From an uncultured Verrucomicrobiota bacterium (lineage in GTDB: Bacteria > Verrucomicrobiota > Kiritimatiellia > RFP12 > UBA3636): 34,438 nucleotides of DNA. Positions within the stretch are counted from its first letter, which is position 1; the number at the start of each line of letters is the position of its first letter. The translations under genes were made by a program, and so were the position numbers. The notes beneath the pieces are model-generated. The model did no database searches. It saw nothing but the letters and a program-made list of their open reading frames with translations, and was not told the origin of the DNA. Shown one piece after another: positions 98 to 34,438 of the stretch. The stretch covers positions 1-34,438 of the forward strand of contig CAMOSH010000017.1 of the NCBI GenBank assembly GCA_946624575.1, given 5' to 3'.

Positions 98-121
98 ATT
101 CCGCCCGTAGTTTCAATTTGC
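98..121 (-). repeat. single copy of the core repeat motif, minus orientation
   Basis: Read on the minus strand this gives GCAAATTGAAACTACGGGCG followed by GAAT, matching the core of the 76-bp array units near 30.8-31.2 kb. The bases after the core (GGAATGATAA) also match the end of that array at about 31.23 kb. It is isolated here and in the opposite orientation to the other copies. The rest of 1-245 shows no gene I can support. Confidence 0.75.
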
Positions 122-1561: not shown

Positions 1562-1896
1562 GAGAACTAAATTGACACTACGGTCGGAATAAAACTGGTA
1601 AGCGAAGGCGCGGGATCAACGGCAGGGGGAGAACTAAATTGACACTACGGTCGAAATAAAACTAGTAAGCGAAGGCGCGGGATCAACGGCAGGACGAGAA
1701 CTAAATTGACACTACGGTCGGAATAAAACTGGTAAGCGAAGGCGCGGGATCAACGGCAGGGCGAGAACTAAATTGATACTACGGTCGGAATAAAACTGGT
1801 AAGCGAAGGCGCGGGATCAACGGCAAGGCGAGAACTAAATTGACACTACGGTCGGAATAAAACTGGCTAGTAAAGGCGAGGGATGAACGGCAGGGG
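1562..1896 (+). repeat. tandem array of five 67-bp units
   Basis: Units start at 1562, 1629, 1696, 1763 and 1830, exactly 67 bp apart. Four are nearly identical and the last is diverged in its second half. Each contains TTGACACTACGGTCGGAAT (TTGATACTACGG in unit 4), which is clearly related to the core TTGAAACTACGGTCGGAAT of the 76-bp array near 31 kb. The rest of the unit (AAACTGGTAAGCGAAGGCG and following) differs from that array and lacks its large hairpin. No protein is evident: 67 is not a multiple of three, so no long repeat ORF forms. Confidence 0.93.
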
Positions 1897-12047: not shown

Positions 12048-12706
12048 TGCACGTCGCTCCGTGGCGGACCGTCGGGAAAAGAAACGGCAGGTGGCGGCGG
12101 CAGCTCGGAATTGGCTGGAACCGGTGGATCGTCATCCGCCGCGGGCGGGGCTTCGTCAACCGCGAGCTCCCGAAGTTCGGCCCAGCCGACTGGCGCGGTC
12201 TCCTCGGCCGGCGCCACGCCCAGCGCGACCGGCGGCAGGGCGCGCCTTTCGCGCGCTCGCATCGAAAGCAGTGCCGCCAGCACCGCGGCCACAAGCACAA
12301 TTGCGGCGGCGCGCGACACGCCGCGGTGATGCAACCAGAGCCACCCGGCTACTGGATGCCGCATGGTGAAAACCACGACGCGGGCACGCCTTGGCGAAAA
12401 CCCGCGCGGCGGGACCCCGAGCGCCGGATCATGTGCGCGAAGCCAGTTTTCGATTCCTGCAGCCCCGTGAAGGGGCTGCAGGGCAGGTGGGGAGCCATGC
12501 TGCGGGGTTCCTGCGGCCCCGTGAAGGGGCTGCGGGGCAGGTGGGGAGCCATGCTGCGGGGTTCCTGCGGCCCCGTGAAGGGGCTGCAGGGCAGGTGGGG
12601 AGCCATGCTGCGGGGTTTCTGCGGCCCCGTGAAGGGGCTGCGGGGCAGGTGGGAAGCCATGCTGCGGGCTGGCGGGGAGATTGTTTTTGCCGGGATCCTG
12701 GTTCAT
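12044..12706 (-). CDS. putative membrane partner (anti-sigma-like) of the ECF sigma factor, with N-terminal repeats
   Basis: The 220-residue protein follows the sigma factor with a 4-bp ATGA overlap, the usual arrangement of an ECF sigma gene and its membrane-bound regulator. Residues ~15-85 are four 18-residue repeats (QHGSPPALQPLHGAAGTP-like) encoded by 54-bp DNA repeats. A basic segment follows, then one membrane helix at about 132-150 (RAAAIVLVAAVLAALLSMRA) and a Pro/Ala/Glu-rich tail of about 70 residues. I see no HxxxCxxC zinc anti-sigma motif and no ASD-like fold, so the anti-sigma role rests on gene order and topology only. The start is firm because of the overlap. The repeat region probably represents an insertion into an originally shorter cytoplasmic N-terminus. 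Confidence 0.7.
   Translation of the reverse strand: MNQDPGKNNLPASPQHGFPPAPQPLHGAAETPQHGSPPALQPLHGAAGTPQHGSPPAPQPLHGAAGTPQHGSPPALQPLHGAAGIENWLRAHDPALGVPPRGFSPRRARVVVFTMRHPVAGWLWLHHRGVSRAAAIVLVAAVLAALLSMRARERRALPPVALGVAPAEETAPVGWAELRELAVDEAPPAADDDPPVPANSELPPPPAVSFPDGPPRSDVQ
12454..12669 (-). repeat. in-frame coding array of four 54-bp palindromic units
   Basis: Units begin at 12454, 12508, 12562 and 12616, each 54 bp. Each carries GCAGCCCC-GTGAA-GGGGCTGC, or the same with one base changed (GCGGCCCC), an 8-bp stem around a 5-nt loop. Read on the minus strand the hairpin encodes QPLHGAAG. The array lies inside the N-terminal part of the anti-sigma-like gene, and the related hairpin recurs in the neighbouring PP-loop gene. 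Confidence 0.93.
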
Positions 12707-13296: not shown

Positions 13297-14559
13297 TCAG
13301 ACCATGAACTCCGCGAACGCGTCGCGAGAACCAGGCTCGACGGAAAACTCCTCCGGATGCACGGCCGCAAAAAGCTGGCGCACGACGATCCGGCCGACGC
13401 CCCTGGAGTCGGAATACGCCGCGACAAGAGCCCTTATGGACGGAAGGTCGCCCTCGACGGGCCGCACGGCCAGCGCGGTGGGACCGGGCACGTTCACGGA
13501 GCGCAGCGTGGCGTCGCCGCCGCGCAGCGCGGTGCGAAGAAACTCGTTGTCGGCGCGGTCGCGCCCAAGCACGACGAGGGTTCCGCCTGGGAAGCGGAAA
13601 TGACGGCCGTGGTTGCAGGCCTCGACAAGCCGCGCGTCGCCAAGTCCCTCGTGTTCCATGAGATTCTTGAGGCGGCGGCAGTAATTCGGCTCCGTGAGCT
13701 TGCATCCACCCGCGGGCGACGGATAGTCGCGTATGCCGTACTTGACGGCCAACGCCATTTGCGGCTTGCGGTTGCGGCCTTGCAGATCAAGCAGGCGCGA
13801 GCGGTCGACAAGTCCTTCGCGCTCCGGTGCGGTGGGGTCCAGGAGCTTTGCGGAAAGCGGGCGCAGCAGGTGGTCGCCGGCGCCGGAGAGGTTGCGCACC
13901 CGGTTGAGAGGGCCGCGCTGCTGCGACATTGGGCGCTGCCCGAGCACTTCGCCAGTGGCCACGAAGTCGAATCCATTCTCCTGCGCGTACTCCCAGGCGC
14001 GCCCGATCATCCGCGCATGGCAGTCGATGCACGGATTCAGGCACGAACCGAAACCTGACGGCGGATCATGCAGCAGCGCGAGAATGTCGGCCGTGAAGTC
14101 TAGCACATGGTGCTTGAAGCCTAGGCGCCGACACGCGCGGGCTGTGCCTTCCGGATTGGCGTAGAACGGAGAGGCGAAGGACACCGCTTCCGCCTCGACG
14201 CCCTGTTCGCGCAGAACGCACAGGCACAGCAGTGAATCCAGCCCGCCCGAGCAAAGGCAGAGGGCGCGGGCGGGGCCTGCGGCCCCGGATCCTGCAGCCA
14301 CGTGAAGGGGCTGCAGGGCAGGTGGGGAACTGGGCTGCTGGGCAGGTGGGGGAGGCGCAGATCCTGCAGCCCCGTGAAGAGGCTGCTGGGCAGGTGGGGA
14401 ACTGGGCTGCTGGGGAGGCGCAGATCCTGCAGCCCCGTGAAGAGGCTGCTGGGCAAGTGGGGAACTGGGCTGCTGGGGAGGCGCAGATCCTGCAGCCACG
14501 TGAAGGGGCTGCGGGTCAGGCTGGGAGCCGGGCGACTGGAAATCTGGTTCTTGGTGCAT
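13297..14559 (-). CDS. PP-loop ATPase, tRNA-thiolase-like (MnmA/ThiI-related), with repeat-derived N-terminus
   Basis: The ATG at 14559 gives 420 residues; the track start at 14571 is a TTG. Residues 1-95 are Pro/Ala/Gln-rich repeats (QPLHGAAGSAPPQQPSSP) encoded by palindromic DNA repeats. The folded domain begins at about 98 with the ATP-pyrophosphatase P-loop SGGLDS (104-109), then the F-x-SPFYANPEGTAR block. A cysteine cluster GSCLNPCIDCHARM (C173, C177, C180) recalls sulfur-handling or iron-sulfur tRNA thiolases. LNRVRNLSGAGDHLLRPLSAKLL and SPAGGCKLTEPNYCRRL follow. It is most like the distinct bacterial/archaeal PP-loop group often annotated as MnmA- or ThiI-like. The modified base or substrate is not determined. 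It lies 27 bp upstream of the sigma-factor gene and 42 bp after the TPR-protein gene. Confidence 0.75.
   Translation of the reverse strand: MHQEPDFQSPGSQPDPQPLHVAAGSAPPQQPSSPLAQQPLHGAAGSAPPQQPSSPPAQQPLHGAAGSAPPPPAQQPSSPPALQPLHVAAGSGAAGPARALCLCSGGLDSLLCLCVLREQGVEAEAVSFASPFYANPEGTARACRRLGFKHHVLDFTADILALLHDPPSGFGSCLNPCIDCHARMIGRAWEYAQENGFDFVATGEVLGQRPMSQQRGPLNRVRNLSGAGDHLLRPLSAKLLDPTAPEREGLVDRSRLLDLQGRNRKPQMALAVKYGIRDYPSPAGGCKLTEPNYCRRLKNLMEHEGLGDARLVEACNHGRHFRFPGGTLVVLGRDRADNEFLRTALRGGDATLRSVNVPGPTALAVRPVEGDLPSIRALVAAYSDSRGVGRIVVRQLFAAVHPEEFSVEPGSRDAFAEFMV
14289..14540 (-). repeat. in-frame coding array of four palindromic units (63-72 bp)
   Basis: Units start at 14289, 14361, 14424 and 14487, so the spacings are 72, 63 and 63 bp. 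Each has the hairpin GCAGCC(C/A)C-GTGAA-G(G/A)GGCTGC. On the minus strand it reads PLHGAAG or PLHVAAG. The hairpin is shared with the 54-bp array 1.8 kb away, but the flanking unit sequence differs. All lie within the N-terminal extension of the PP-loop protein. Confidence 0.92.
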
Positions 14560-27124: not shown

Positions 27125-29466
27125 GCAACGACACGCCCCCGCCACCCGTGCCGCCCGCGCCGCCGCAGGACAATCCGGCCGGCGGCGCCACTCCCCCGCC
27201 ATGGCAGCCAGGGCCGCCACCTGCGCCGTTCAAGACGTCGCAAGACGACGACGCGGGAAAATCCGGCGAAGAAACATCAGCCGCAGACGGTTCCGCCGAT
27301 GGCGGCGACAAGACGCGCAACGCCCGCAAAGCACCAGACTCGGACGGGGAAAAGGGCGACTCTTCCGGCGAAGAGCGCCCTGGTCGGCGCGCCGGCGGCC
27401 AGCCGCGCGGCTCTTCATGGGGCGGCATGGCCGCTCTGCTTCTAATCGCCGCCATTGTCTGGGGATTTTTCTGGAACGACGGAACCGGGGCCGACAGCCC
27501 GCGCGACATCGAGTATTCTCCTGACTTCGTGATGCTCGTCAATTCGGGCCTGGTCCGGAAAGTGGAGATAGTCCGAGGCGACGGCCTTTGTCAGATCCGC
27601 GGCACCGTGGCCGGTGAAAATCGAACCGGCAATCAAGGGGACGGCGGAATCCAGTCCGCCGAACCATCCTCCGTCCCGCGCGAAGGCGAAAAAGACGGCG
27701 CCTCGTCGTCGCAAGTCATCGCCTCTCCAGCAAAGGCCGACCTCCGGGCGGCCCGCAACGGGGCGGCGGAATCCAGTCCGCCGCACATCGGCGAGGGCAC
27801 CGTCGCCACATCGCGCGTCGACGGTCAGGACGCCGTCGCCACACTTGCCGACGTCATCGCCTCCAAATACCCCACGGGCACCAAATTCCGGGTGCAGGCG
27901 CGCGCGTCAGACGACCTGGAGCGCTTTTTACTCGCCAACGGCGTCTCCTACGACTGGAAACAGCAGGATCCGCGCATCACGTTCATCCTCGTCCAGATAC
28001 TTCCGTCGCTGGTTTTCTTCGGCCTTGTCTACTGGTTCTTCTTCAGGAGAATGGGCGGCCGCGACGGGCTCGGCTTCGGCAAGAGCCGCGCACAGATGGT
28101 CGTGCCAACCGGACAACAGCGCGTCACGTTCAAGGACGTGGCCGGATGCGACGAGGCGAAGGAGGATGTGGTCGAGGTAGTGGAATACCTCAAGAATCCC
28201 GGAAAATTCGGGCGCCTGGGCGGCAAGATGCCGCGCGGCATCCTGCTTTCCGGACCTCCCGGCACCGGCAAGACGCTGCTGGCCAAGGCCATCGCCGGAG
28301 AGGCGGACGTGCCGTTCTTCTCGATAAGCGGCTCGGATTTCGTCGAGATGTTCGTCGGCGTCGGCGCAAGCCGCGTCCGCGACATGTTCGTGCAGGCGAA
28401 AAAACAGTCGCCGTGCCTTGTTTTCATAGACGAAATCGACGCCGTCGGGCGCCGGCGCGGCGCCGGCATCGGCGGTGGGCACGACGAGCGCGAACAGACG
28501 CTCAACGCGCTGCTCGTGGAGATGGATGGATTCGGCACCAACAGCGGCATAGTGGTCATCGCCGCGACCAACCGGCCCGACGTGCTCGATCCGGCCCTGC
28601 TGCGCCCCGGACGCTTCGACCGACAGCTCGTGGTTGACCTGCCCACGATGGAGGGGAGGCTCGAAATCCTGAAAGTCCATGCCGCGAAGGTGAAACTGGC
28701 ACCCGGAACCGACCTGTCCAAAATCGCGCGCGGGACGCCGGGTTGCTCCGGAGCGGACCTCGCGAACATCGTCAACGAGGCCGCGCTCGTGGCCGCGCGC
28801 GCGGAAAAACCGGGCGTGGACGAGGACGACTTCGAGGCCGCGCGCGACAAGGTCCTCTGGGGCAAGGAGCGCCGCAGCCACGCGATGGACGAGGAAGAAA
28901 AACGCCTCACCGCCTACCACGAAGCCGGGCACGCCGTGTGCGCCGTCCTGGAAAAGCATGCCGACCCGGTTCACAAGGTGACCATCATTCCGCGCGGCAT
29001 GGCGCTTGGGCTGACGGCGTTTCTGCCCAAGAAGGACAGGACGCACTACTCGCGTTCGCAAATCCTCGCCGACCTCGTGGTCTCCATGGGCGGTCGCGCC
29101 GCCGAGGAGGTTTTTCTGGACGACGTCTCCACCGGCGCCCGCCAGGACATCAAGCAGGCCACGGCCCTGGCCCATTCCTTCGTTTGCGACTGGGGATTGA
29201 GCGAGGTCCTCGGGCCGCGCGCCTACGGCAAGAACGAGGAACTCGTGTTCCTCGGCGCGGAAGTCAACCGCACCCAGGACTACGGCGACGAGGCGGCACG
29301 CAAGATCGACGAAGAGGTGGACGGGCTGATCCGCGACGCGCACTCCAAGGCGCTGGCGCATCTGCGCGGCAACCGTTCCGCGGTCGAGGAGCTCGTCCGG
29401 AGACTGTTGGAAAAGGAGACCGTGGACGGCTCCGAAGTGGAGGCGATCGTGCGTGGCGGCCTTTGA
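27121..29466 (+). CDS. ftsH: ATP-dependent zinc metalloprotease FtsH
   Basis: FtsH is the membrane-anchored AAA+ protease that degrades misfolded and regulatory membrane or cytoplasmic proteins. I place the start at the TTG at 27121 (TTGA overlap with the recA stop, GGAG 9 nt upstream), giving 781 residues. Domains: an unusual ~100-residue Pro/Gly/Asp-rich cytoplasmic leader; TM1 at about 103-117; a periplasmic domain with a low-complexity insertion at about 165-226; TM2 at 288-308; Walker A GPPGTGKT at 378; Walker B FIDEID at 435; SRH region [19 protein letters not shown] at 484; zinc site HEAGH at 600. A start at ATG 27427 would remove the leader. The end overlaps gspF by 14 bp. Confidence 0.96.
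27636..27663 (+). repeat. hairpin element inside ftsH, copy 1
   Basis: GGCGGAATCCAGTCCGCC preceded by CAAGGGGAC matches the hairpin part of the 76-bp array unit (GGCGGTCTCCAGACCGCC), with changed bases at both stem ends that keep base pairing. Here it is read as DGGIQSAE. Confidence 0.75.
27759..27784 (+). repeat. hairpin element inside ftsH, copy 2
   Basis: The same 18-bp hairpin as copy 1, preceded by GCAACGGGGCGGC, an even closer match to the array context (GGCAAAGGGGCGGC), and followed by GCACATC as in array unit 4. It is read in a different frame from copy 1, as GAAESSPP. Confidence 0.78.
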
Positions 29467-30778
29467 GTACAGGGCCAAGTCCCGTGACGGCCAGACCCGC
29501 TCGGGAACCGTAGACGCGGCCGATCGCCGCGCCGCGCTGGCCGCCGTCGGCCGACTGGGGCTGCTGCCAATAAGCGTTGCCCCGGCCGGCGCCGCCGGAA
29601 AGGCTGGCGGGCGCGGCGCCGCCAGACACGACAGGCGCGCCGGCGCGAAAACCGGAGGAAGCCCCCGCCGTGACGAACGTTCGGGCGCGAAGCCACGCGG
29701 CGGCGGGCTCCGCCTTGCTCGCCCGGGCGTCATGTCGGCGCGCGAACGGCTGCTTTTCACAAGCGAGCTGGCGGATCTGCTGGAGGGCGGCATGACCCTG
29801 GGCGCCGCGCTTTCCGCGATCGCCCGCCGCGGGGACGGCGCGGAGTCCGGTCCCGAGGCGATCGTCGCGAAACTCCGCGATTCCATCGTCGAGGGATCCA
29901 GCTTTTCCGAAGCCCTCGCCCGCTTTCCAAAGGCTTTTTCGCCAGTGTACGTGAACATGATTCGCGCCGGGGAGGCCTCCGGTGCGCTGACCGACGTGCT
30001 GCGAAGGCTCCTTGCGCACGACGAACGCACTTCCGCGATGCGCTCGAAGATCGTCTCTGCGATGGTGTATCCGGCGATCGTGCTGTGCATGGGCGTTGGC
30101 GTCGCAATATTCGCCATGACGTACATACTGCCGAAATTCCAGACCATTTTCGACCAGATGGGGCCTGACGGACTGCCGCCAATGACAAAGGCACTGCTTG
30201 GCATGAACGACTGGGCCAAGGCCAACTGGATTGTCGTGGTGGCGCTTGCGGCGGGCGGGTTCTTTCTTTTCCGGCGCTGGACCGCGACGGAACGCGGGCG
30301 GCTGGCATGGGACGGCTTCAAGCTGCGCGCCCCGCTCGTGCGCGGCATCGTCGCCAGCGCCGTCTATGCCAATTTCGCCAGCACGCTGGAGTCCCTCATG
30401 CGAAACGGGGTGCCAGTGCTGCGCGCACTGGAACTCACGGCGCAGACAGTCGGCAACGCCGTCGTCGGCGCGGAACTGCTCAATGCGCGCGACCGCGTGA
30501 CGGACGGCACGTCCATATCCGGCCCACTGGAGCAGGGCGGCGTGTTTCCGCCAACGGTAATCGACCTGATTTCCATCGGGGAGCGCACGGGCGACATGCC
30601 GGCAGCGCTTTCCCACGTGGCGAAGCGCTACGAAAGCGAACTTGAAAAGAACATACTGGTGTTCACGACGGCGCTCGAACCTATCATGATATGCGCGGTG
30701 GCCGGAATCATCGGCTTCATCGCAGTCTCGATCATGCAGGCGGTGCTCAGCGTCACCAGCGGCATGAACCTGAACTGA
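29453..30778 (+). CDS. GspF/PilC-type inner-membrane protein (type II secretion or type IV pilus)
   Basis: The 441-residue protein is the polytopic platform protein of type II secretion or type IV pilus machines. It has the two repeated GspF domains: FTSELADLLEGGMTLGAALSAI to about 215, and ANFASTLESLMRNGVPVLRALELTAQTVGN from about 305. Membrane helices are near 195-215 (IVSAMVYPAIVLCMGVGVAIFAMTYILP), 260-277 and 405-425. An Arg/Gly-rich linker sits at about residues 45-92. The start is the GTG at 29453, with GGAGG 9 nt upstream; it overlaps the ftsH end by 14 bp. No other secretion genes are in the window, so the system it serves is unknown. Confidence 0.9.
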   Translation: MAAFEYRAKSRDGQTRSGTVDAADRRAALAAVGRLGLLPISVAPAGAAGKAGGRGAARHDRRAGAKTGGSPRRDERSGAKPRGGGLRLARPGVMSARERLLFTSELADLLEGGMTLGAALSAIARRGDGAESGPEAIVAKLRDSIVEGSSFSEALARFPKAFSPVYVNMIRAGEASGALTDVLRRLLAHDERTSAMRSKIVSAMVYPAIVLCMGVGVAIFAMTYILPKFQTIFDQMGPDGLPPMTKALLGMNDWAKANWIVVVALAAGGFFLFRRWTATERGRLAWDGFKLRAPLVRGIVASAVYANFASTLESLMRNGVPVLRALELTAQTVGNAVVGAELLNARDRVTDGTSISGPLEQGGVFPPTVIDLISIGERTGDMPAALSHVAKRYESELEKNILVFTTALEPIMICAVAGIIGFIAVSIMQAVLSVTSGMNLN

Positions 30779-30811: not shown

Positions 30812-31233
30812 GCAAGTCCCGCAAACCGCAAATTGAAACCACGGGCGGAATAGTTCCGGCAAAGGGGCGGCGGTCTCCAGACCGCCGGCAAGTCCCGCAA
30901 ACCGCAAATTGAAATCACGGGCGGAATAGTTCCGGTAAAGGGGCGGCGGTCTCCAGACCGCCGGCAAGTCCCGCAAACCGCAAATTGAAACTACGGTCGG
31001 AATAGTTCCGGCAAAGGGGCGGCGGCCTCCTGACCGCCGGCACATCCCGAAAAACCGCAAATTGAAACCACGGGCGGAATACTTCCGGCAAAGGGGCGGC
31101 GGTCTCCAGACCGCCGGCAAGTCTCGCAAACCGCAAATTGAAACCACGGGCGGAATACTTCCGGCAAAGGGGCGGCGGCCTCCTGACCGCCGGCAAGTCC
31201 CGCAAACCGCAAATTGAAACCACGGTCGGAATG
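30812..31233 (+). repeat. tandem array of 76-bp units (five full, one partial) with two hairpins each
   Basis: Units start at 30812, 30888, 30964, 31040, 31117 and 31193; spacing is 76 bp, once 77. Each contains the core AAATTGAAACCACGGGCGG. A small stem CGGAA-TAG/TAC-TTCCG and a larger hairpin GGCGGTCTCCAGACCGCC follow; two units carry GGCGGCCTCCTGACCGCC instead. The sixth unit ends after the core. The array fills most of the 535-bp gap between gspF and cysS; I see no gene in it. Confidence 0.95.
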
Positions 31234-31273: not shown

Positions 31274-31303
31274 TTGCCGCGGGCGGGCGTGGCGTGGTAG
31301 TAT
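31274..31303 (+). promoter_or_regulatory. putative cysS promoter
   Basis: TTGCCG and TAGTAT are separated by 18 bp, the same spacing as the recA promoter. The -10 ends only 10 bp before the ATG at 31314, so the transcript would be almost leaderless. Confidence 0.42.
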
Positions 31304-31313
31304 CGGCGGCGTC

Positions 31314-32723
31314 ATGCAATTGAAGTTCTACAATTCCCTCACGCGGCGGCTTGAACCGTTCGTTCCGCTGGAACCTGGCCGGGCGGGGCTGTACACCTGC
31401 GGCCCCACCGTCTACAACTTCGCGCACGTCGGAAACTTCCGCGCGTACGCGTTCGAAGACATTCTGCACCGCACCCTCGAATACGCCGGCTACAAGCTCG
31501 TGCACGTGATGAACCTCACCGACGTGGACGACAAGACTATCCGCGGGTCGCGCGCGGCCGGAGTTGATCTCCGCGACTGGACGCGCCAATACAAGGACGC
31601 GTTTTTCGAGGATTTGAAGACTCTCGGCATCGCGCCGGCGACCGTCTACCCCGCCGCCACGGATCACGTGCCGGAGATGATCGCGCTCATTGAAAAGCTC
31701 GTCGAGCGCGGAGTCGCGTACAAGGCTGCCGACGGCTGCGTGTACTTCTCCGTTGCGAAGTTCCCCAGCTACGGCAAGCTCGCGCATCTGGATTTTTCAG
31801 GGATGCGCAGCGGGGTGCGGATTTCCAACGACGAATACGCCAAGGACTCGGTTGGCGACTTCGCGCTGTGGAAGGCGTGGGACGAGGCTGACGGCCCGGT
31901 GAAGTGGGATTCGCCATGGGGCCCTGGCCGCCCTGGCTGGCACATCGAGTGCTCCGCAATGAGCATGAAGTACCTCGGCGAAAGCTTCGACCTGCACACC
32001 GGCGGCATCGACAACCTCTTTCCGCACCACGAGAACGAAATCGCCCAGGCGGAGGCCGCCACTGGCAAGCCGTTCGTCCGCTGCTGGATGCACTGCGCCC
32101 ACCTGCGCGTCAACGGCGAGAAGATGTCCAAGAGCCTCGGCAACTTCTACACGCTGCGCGACTTGCTGGCCAAGGGCTGGAGCGGGCGCGAGATACGCCA
32201 TGTCCTCGTGGCGGGCCACTACAGGCAGCCGCTGAACTTCGCGTTCGACACGCTTTCCGCAGCCCGGGTCGCGCTTTCGCGGATTGACGACTTCTCCCGC
32301 CGCATGGAGGAACTGGCCTCCGCGAAGGGCGCCGCCGCGCCGGCGGGACAATCGCCGGACTGGCCGAACCGCCACGTCGCGGCGTTCGAGGACGCGCTCG
32401 CCGACGACCTCAACACCCCGCTCGCGTTCGCGGCGGCGCATTCGCTCGTGAACGAAGGCAACCGCCTCGCCCAGGAAGGCACGGCCACTCCGGCGGACGC
32501 CGCCGCTGCGCTCGCGGCGCTCGCCAAGATGGACAGGGTGCTCGGCGTCCTGTCCCGCCCGGCGGACCAAATCCCGGAGCAGCTCCAGGCATTGCTGGAT
32601 GCGCGCGCCGCCGCGCGCACGTCGAAGAACTGGGCCGAAAGCGACCGTCTGCGCGACGAAATCGCCTCTCTCGGCTGGAGTGTCAAGGACACCAGGGACG
32701 GGCAGAGGGTCTCGAAATGCTAG
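31314..32723 (+). CDS. cysS: cysteinyl-tRNA synthetase
   Basis: CysRS charges tRNA-Cys with cysteine. The 469-residue class I synthetase has MQLKFYNSLTRRLEPFVPLEPGRAGLYTCGPTVYNFAHVGNFR at its start, with the zinc Cys in YTCGPTVY and HVGN as the HIGH-type motif. WHIECSAMSMKYLG near 215 and HTGGIDNLFPHHENEIAQAEA near 233 hold the other zinc and active-site residues. KMSKSLGNFYTLRDL near 272 carries the KMSKS loop. The C-terminal helical domain is complete (NWAESDRLRDEIASLGW). The Met at 31314 is the canonical start; no ribosome binding site precedes it. The stop overlaps the dedA-like gene by 7 bp. Confidence 0.97.
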   Translation: MQLKFYNSLTRRLEPFVPLEPGRAGLYTCGPTVYNFAHVGNFRAYAFEDILHRTLEYAGYKLVHVMNLTDVDDKTIRGSRAAGVDLRDWTRQYKDAFFEDLKTLGIAPATVYPAATDHVPEMIALIEKLVERGVAYKAADGCVYFSVAKFPSYGKLAHLDFSGMRSGVRISNDEYAKDSVGDFALWKAWDEADGPVKWDSPWGPGRPGWHIECSAMSMKYLGESFDLHTGGIDNLFPHHENEIAQAEAATGKPFVRCWMHCAHLRVNGEKMSKSLGNFYTLRDLLAKGWSGREIRHVLVAGHYRQPLNFAFDTLSAARVALSRIDDFSRRMEELASAKGAAAPAGQSPDWPNRHVAAFEDALADDLNTPLAFAAAHSLVNEGNRLAQEGTATPADAAAALAALAKMDRVLGVLSRPADQIPEQLQALLDARAAARTSKNWAESDRLRDEIASLGWSVKDTRDGQRVSKC

Positions 32724-34383: not shown

Positions 34384-34438
34384 TGAAACCACGGGCGGAA
34401 TAGTTCCGGCAAAGGGGCGGCGGTCTCCTGACCGCCGG
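34384..34438 (+). repeat. single 76-bp-type repeat copy, cut by the window end
   Basis: TGAAACCACGGGCGGAATAG and the rest of the unit, including GGCGGTCTCCTGACCGCC, match the array near 31 kb. The copy starts at TGAAAC; the usual GCAAAT in front is replaced by the preceding hairpin, which marks a possible junction. The unit or array may continue past the window. Confidence 0.9.

Follow-up and report, generated by a model that had tools for sequence, protein, structure and literature searches.

A REP-type hairpin and a non-palindromic, essentially genus-specific repeat combined in a 76-bp tandem array of an uncultured Verrucomicrobiota bacterium

A tandem array of 76-bp units next to cysS of an uncultured Verrucomicrobiota bacterium is very probably a locally amplified BIME-like unit, i.e., a piece of a mobile repeat of the REP/BIME kind. 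Every unit combines two dispersed repeats, called module A and module B in the following. Three congeneric species each carry tens of genomic copies of module B, a REP-type hairpin that comes in two subtypes forming inverted pairs. The element is of a known kind (REP/BIME), and its odd part is the one non-palindromic component, module A.

The array is located in the window, i.e., the whole stretch of 34,438 nt that was analysed, which is contig C17 of the draft genome G000 (3.95 Mb, 92% complete; referred to as own genome). For the range 30812-31232, TRF on the window reports a period of 76 with 5.5 copies and 92% matches, and the direct repeats agree. The five full units are 76-77 bp long each and are followed by a partial sixth one. 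With module B counted as 18 bases and module A as 22, the period is given by 18+19+22+17 = 76 bp. Each unit has a single module B, all of them in direct orientation, and module A separates one B copy from the next (Table 1). The array is flanked by a gene with a T2SSF domain (type II secretion protein F-like, here gspF-like; 29453-30778, + strand), whose stop codon lies 34 bp ahead of the array, and by cysS (31314-32723, + strand). Searching phage and plasmid collections with the array gave no match. The window also holds a 72-bp array (2068-2491, about 6 copies) that lacks both modules, as well as 54- and 63-bp tandem arrays (12454-12668 and 14288-14525), which contain the palindrome CCTGCAGCCCCGTGAAGGGGCTGCAGG and lie within or next to coding frames.

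Table 1. Features of the array and related repeats (positions in the window).
Feature	Position	Strand	Description	Basis
76-bp tandem array	30812..31233	+	5 full units, starts 30812, 30888, 30964, 31041, 31117	TRF + direct repeats
Partial unit 6	from 31193	+	terminates with module A core	
Module B (REP), unit 1	30864..30887	+	GGGGC head + hairpin, T-A type	pattern scans
Module B (REP), unit 2	30940..30963	+	T-A type	pattern scans
Module B (REP), unit 3	31016..31039	+	inner pair broken (C.A)	pattern scans + fold
Module B (REP), unit 4	31093..31116	+	T-A type	pattern scans
Module B (REP), unit 5	31169..31192	+	inner pair broken (C.A)	pattern scans
Module B copy in ftsH-like frame	27643..27660	+	A.G mismatch beside A-T pair	
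Second module B copy in ftsH-like frame	27765..27782	+	sequence identical to 27643 copy	
CGGAA-TAG-TTCCG, unit 1	30846..30858	+	proposed hairpin; also 30922-30934, 30998-31010	
CGGAA-TAC-TTCCG	31075-31087 and 31151-31163	+	proposed hairpin, TAC loop	
Module A core, unit 1	30830..30851	+	AAATTGAAACCACGGGCGGAAT	pattern search
Module A core, unit 2	30906..30927	+		pattern search
Module A core, unit 3	30982..31003	+		pattern search
Module A core, unit 4	31059..31080	+		pattern search
Module A core, unit 5	31135..31156	+		pattern search
Module A core, unit 6	31211..31232	+	then unique GATAATG	
Lone module A copy	98..119	-		pattern search
Period-67 array	1569..1858	+	5 copies; common with 76-bp array: module A only	
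Further A-B part of 76-bp unit	34384..34438	+	98% identity; ended by contig end	

The original prediction described the array as having two conserved hairpins per unit and took loop variation with stem retention as a sign of selection on RNA or cruciform structure. The array is real, and its units do carry CGGAA-TAG-TTCCG (units 1-3) or CGGAA-TAC-TTCCG (units 4-5) as described. A GGCGG...CCGCC hairpin is found in 5/5 units, and for unit 1 its DNA fold has z = -4.5. The inner bases TCT/AGA assigned to this hairpin are present in units 1, 2 and 4, while units 3 and 5 read GGCGGCCTCCTGACCGCC, i.e., they show a C.A mismatch at the inner pair, and the fold drops two inner pairs. These changes are distributed according to a dimer pattern, in which units 2-3 were copied as 4-5: TRF also gives a period of 153, and units 4 and 5 share the change from TAG to TAC alongside the alternating T/C change, as expected from a dimer duplication. 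Since this pattern accounts for both the loop difference (TAG/TAC) and the stem difference (T/C), these represent one or two events, not independent ones. Based on a hand count of variable sites within the array, stems vary at 1/26 positions compared to 10/50 elsewhere (Fisher p = 0.086), and the first hairpin (CGGAA/TTCCG) taken singly yields p = 0.34. Stem-selective conservation is not demonstrated by the array alone.

In the CGGAA/TTCCG hairpin, CGGAA belongs to module A, whereas TTCCG is carried only by the 76-bp unit and near copies of it; other module A copies run on as GGTGAAAC, GATAA, etc. The presence of CGGAA is thus explained by module A and lends no support to a hairpin, such that CGGAA-TA[GC]-TTCCG is not supported as a structure.

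The picture is different for module B, whose consensus is GGGG(A/C)GGCGG(T/A)CTCCAG(A/T)CCGCCG and which occurs singly or as inverted pairs and is also part of many tandem arrays. We scanned three genomes (own and the sister genomes G001 and G006) in an unbiased manner, i.e., with head, left arm, loop and one outer G fixed but inner base and right arm left free. Exact copies of head and left arm number 81 in the own genome, 72 in G006 and 26 in G001, compared to 0-1 for the control. With one mismatch allowed, the module B pattern was matched 0-3 times per genome in the 8 other members of the genus that were searched, and no more than 5 times in other relatives. Among the first 150 of the 179 places, the inner pair is T-A in 73 and A-T in 73 cases, next to C.A (2), A.C (1) and T.G (1), i.e., pairing is kept in 146/150, while the exact right arm CCGCC is found in 145/150. 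Both C.A copies among these 150 are units 3 and 5 of the 76-bp array, which thus provides half of the four exceptions.

The covariation test over all genome copies that had been suggested was approximated by a G-test over all column pairs, using 118 left-anchored copies (one per locus and orientation). Out of 435 column pairs, the inner pair shows the top association (G of 168, next 72), and the pair outside of it ranks third. Here, regions were drawn from full-pattern matches, and the unbiased pairing count is the one from the right-arm-free scan. The strength of the association largely reflects the existence of two subfamilies, and independent compensations are uncountable from this signal; beyond the two subtypes they are few, the next pair changing from G-C to A-T in 3 copies. 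The two subtypes are arranged in a strict manner, i.e., close inverted (+,-) pairs are unlike in type in 33/34 cases while direct neighbours are alike in 29/29. Within called gene frames we find 91 of 167 B copies, where the calls come from a simple codon-usage gene finder that may take GC-rich arrays for genes; by these calls, module B is not cleanly confined to intergenic DNA. With regard to the two copies in the ftsH-like gene, the described AAT/AGT is right for the A-T pair, which is retained, but not for the adjacent one, which is A.G mismatched (both read GGCGGAATCCAGTCCGCC); the TC/GA given for 34.4 kb is correct. Both ftsH copies are in frame, ahead of the AAA domain, and the palindrome GGCGAGGGCACCGTCGCC follows the second. 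In summary of the covariation question, module B pairing is conserved family-wide, for which the 76-bp array is poor evidence, and the two-hairpin claim is retained for module B only.

Module B is termed REP-type and not a GTAG-class REP, i.e., its head reads GGGG(A/C) instead of the GTAG/GTGG that marks most described families. In some REPtrons, binding or cutting tolerates altered heads (PMC8266576), and some RAYT subclasses are flanked by atypical structures (PMC6006769). With REP elements and their RAYT genes (PMC2817692, PMC8266576), module B shares a short, GC-rich hairpin that is preceded by a G-rich head on the 5' side and repeated tens of times in a genome, complementary stem changes as reported by Nunvar et al. 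2010, and, in G001, a Y1/HUH transposase gene with inverted REPs on both sides. The differences are the head, the host (an uncultured Verrucomicrobiota genus) and the window's own assembly, in which no cognate RAYT gene was found. When compared to BIMEs and REPINs (PMC3116915, PMC6006769), module B likewise forms inverted pairs of two related types, similar to the related types Y, Z1 and Z2 that E. coli REPs combine in such pairs (PMC6006769), and ordered tandem clusters that take in flanking sequence. Alternating orientation and two REP types are thus seen family-wide but not in the 76-bp array itself, whose units each contribute one B copy in the same direction, separated by the non-palindromic module A.

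The candidate RAYT gene of the sister genome G001 is found at C95:22569-23387 (- strand). Its product matches Pfam Y1_Tnp over cut-off (E=1.5e-7), and its sole NCBIfam match is NF047646 (REP-associated tyrosine transposase; E=4.8e-16) with 59 bits against a cut-off of 80 bits, the frame being cut by the contig end. A PDB match to TnpArep 4er8 (E=1.2e-4) is also observed, and the HVH and YIxxN motifs can be seen in the sequence. Inverted B pairs are located downstream of the gene, and the start of one is located upstream, where the contig ends; i.e., G001 shows a Y1 transposase gene between inverted copies of one REP, as in a REPtron. Neither the own genome (92% complete, many contigs ending in repeats) nor G006 (87% complete) showed a RAYT gene flanked by B copies. 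The own genome does have two Y1 transposase genes (G000:C217 and G000:C82), which sit among other palindromes (families GTGGCGACGACG...CGTCGTCGC and GGGGCGCTGCTGCGCAGCGCTCCCC) and were therefore rejected as mobilisers of B; their setting makes further REP/RAYT systems likely. The B mobiliser of the own genome is thus missing, lost or in the unassembled part.

RAYT genes between inverted REPs and pairing-preserving stem changes are established (PMC2817692), and TnpA-REP acts on single-stranded REPs, with stem mismatches that lower or abolish cutting in one system (PMC8266576). Given that module B is a REP adjacent to a gene for a RAYT-type HUH transposase, the proposed 'RNA or cruciform' is not the preferred interpretation, and a folded single DNA strand seems the likelier selected form.

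Module A is given by AAATTGAAACYACGGKCGGAATGRT. Written as AAATTGAAACYACGGKCGGAAT and allowing for up to 3 mismatches, it has 78 matches in the own genome, while the reversed control pattern has none. When aligning one copy from each of 36 loci, information is high across about 25 positions (a 22-25 bp block, extended by GRT) and near zero in the flanks. Outside of called genes we find 80/81 copies, and no bias toward promoters or gene ends was seen. At 2 mismatches, 70 copies are observed in the own species, 8, 2 and 2 in three genus members, and 0 in other relatives searched. Outside the genus, 84,980 species as well as viral contigs gave a few further single exact matches, nearly all without the AAA start, which look like chance. 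Module A is thus essentially genus-specific. About 10 arrays share module A alone; with the exception of one related pair, spacers from different arrays differ about as much as shuffled sequence does (0.29 against 0.26). This recurrence in arrays with unrelated spacers is what makes module A the odd component. Two loci (G000:C93:14229-14411 and G000:C199:5703-5839) are pure 23-bp head-to-tail A arrays of 8 and 6 copies, respectively, in which one base links neighbouring copies. A third dispersed repeat, AATTGTTCACAAATCGCAATTG-like, is often found beside module A (28 matches in 10/57 own-genome stretches searched).

The combination of both modules is not restricted to the 76-bp array, i.e., independent loci show the same fixed spacings (B-19-A and A-16 to 18-B). 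At one locus, a block of 278 bp in the own genome, which includes A and a pair of B copies, corresponds to 15 bp in G001, with flanks that are 98% identical. This block also holds the third repeat (AATTGTTCACAAATCGC-like) and is therefore a mosaic and not a minimal element. An orthologous A array differs in its number of units, namely 5 in the own genome, 3 in G001 and 2 in G006. For the 76-bp array, we sought an empty site in relatives, which have other genes before cysS such that the locus is not comparable. Many G000 contigs break within A or B copies (e.g., at 34384-34438 of the window); these repeats thus interrupted the assembly, and the copy numbers are to be read as minimum values.

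In the mechanism we propose, a RAYT would recognise the folded single strand of the B hairpin and cut next to it, which would spread B together with the intervening sequence, and selection on the transposase substrate would keep the B stem paired. The tandem copies would have arisen after insertion, either by unequal exchange or slippage or by repeated transposase-mediated reinsertion, partly in a dimer step. The array itself would be without a specific regulatory RNA role because the apparent cysS promoter lies downstream of it.

The latter point bears on the reading of the array as a structured RNA or as a transcription signal (secretion gene mRNA 3' end, attenuator or terminator) with hairpins kept for RNA function. 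The short distance to the gspF-like stop codon, at which REPs are known to affect mRNA ends, and the stable B hairpin of unit 1 agree with it. We nevertheless hold it to be highly improbable. No Rfam family has a match in the window at gathering thresholds, which also dismisses a known RNA family as identity, and the + strand of the array shows no intrinsic terminator. Folds of whole units as RNA are unexceptional (z of -1.7 and -0.8), the stems are weakened in 2/5 units, and the B hairpin is found at many unrelated loci in both orientations. By eye, a -10-like element (TAGTAT/TAGAAT) is visible about 15 bases before the cysS start (31293-31313), also in G001, G005 and G007, which suggests that the array is not part of the cysS transcript; on the + strand of the array itself, no match to a sigma-70 promoter was found. 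A generic REP effect on the upstream mRNA 3' end is possible. A CRISPR was considered and rejected as well: ATTGAAAC resembles a common CRISPR repeat end, but whole units repeat, and spacers are 92-96% alike within two arrays of the window.

Arrays that share a common core have been described for human minisatellites (VNTR). A neutral minisatellite, i.e., an array produced by slippage or unequal exchange in repeat-rich intergenic DNA, with hairpin conservation due to recent duplication only, would be in line with the dimer pattern, with the presence of several other unrelated arrays in the window and with the non-significant difference between stems and the rest at only about 10 variable sites. 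It leaves the dispersed, type-paired and RAYT-linked B family as well as the fixed A-B spacings elsewhere unexplained, and is very unlikely as a full account, while it is probably true for the amplification step. We give somewhat more room, as a possible though rather doubtful alternative, to selection on module A instead of the hairpins, where A would be the putative target of a protein that recognises its sequence, such as a regulator, a nucleoid protein or a nickase, and arrays would form around it. The sharp information block, the almost exclusively intergenic position and the sharing of A by arrays with near-random spacers speak for this. On the other hand, a copy number that is high in one species, low in three and zero in other relatives is unlike a housekeeping site and makes a mobile or amplifying repeat likelier, and no preference for promoters or gene ends was seen. 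An unlikely but related idea is that module A promotes tandem duplication of its neighbours, e.g., when nicked or protein-bound, with or without a REP. It would then be the counterpart of a minisatellite core, which the unrelated spacers around one short core and the species-dependent unit number at an orthologous site resemble; in contrast to VNTRs, module A is bacterial, intergenic, 22-25 bp long and essentially genus-specific.

With the amplified BIME-like unit as the preferred reading, an uncultured Verrucomicrobiota genus gains a REP/RAYT-type system whose head (GGGG) is non-canonical and whose two subtypes are mutually pairing. Furthermore, a covariation claim from a single tandem array can mislead, as half of the exceptions to family-wide pairing sat in this very array. 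Finally, module A provides a testable case of one short sequence that is common to many unrelated bacterial tandem arrays.
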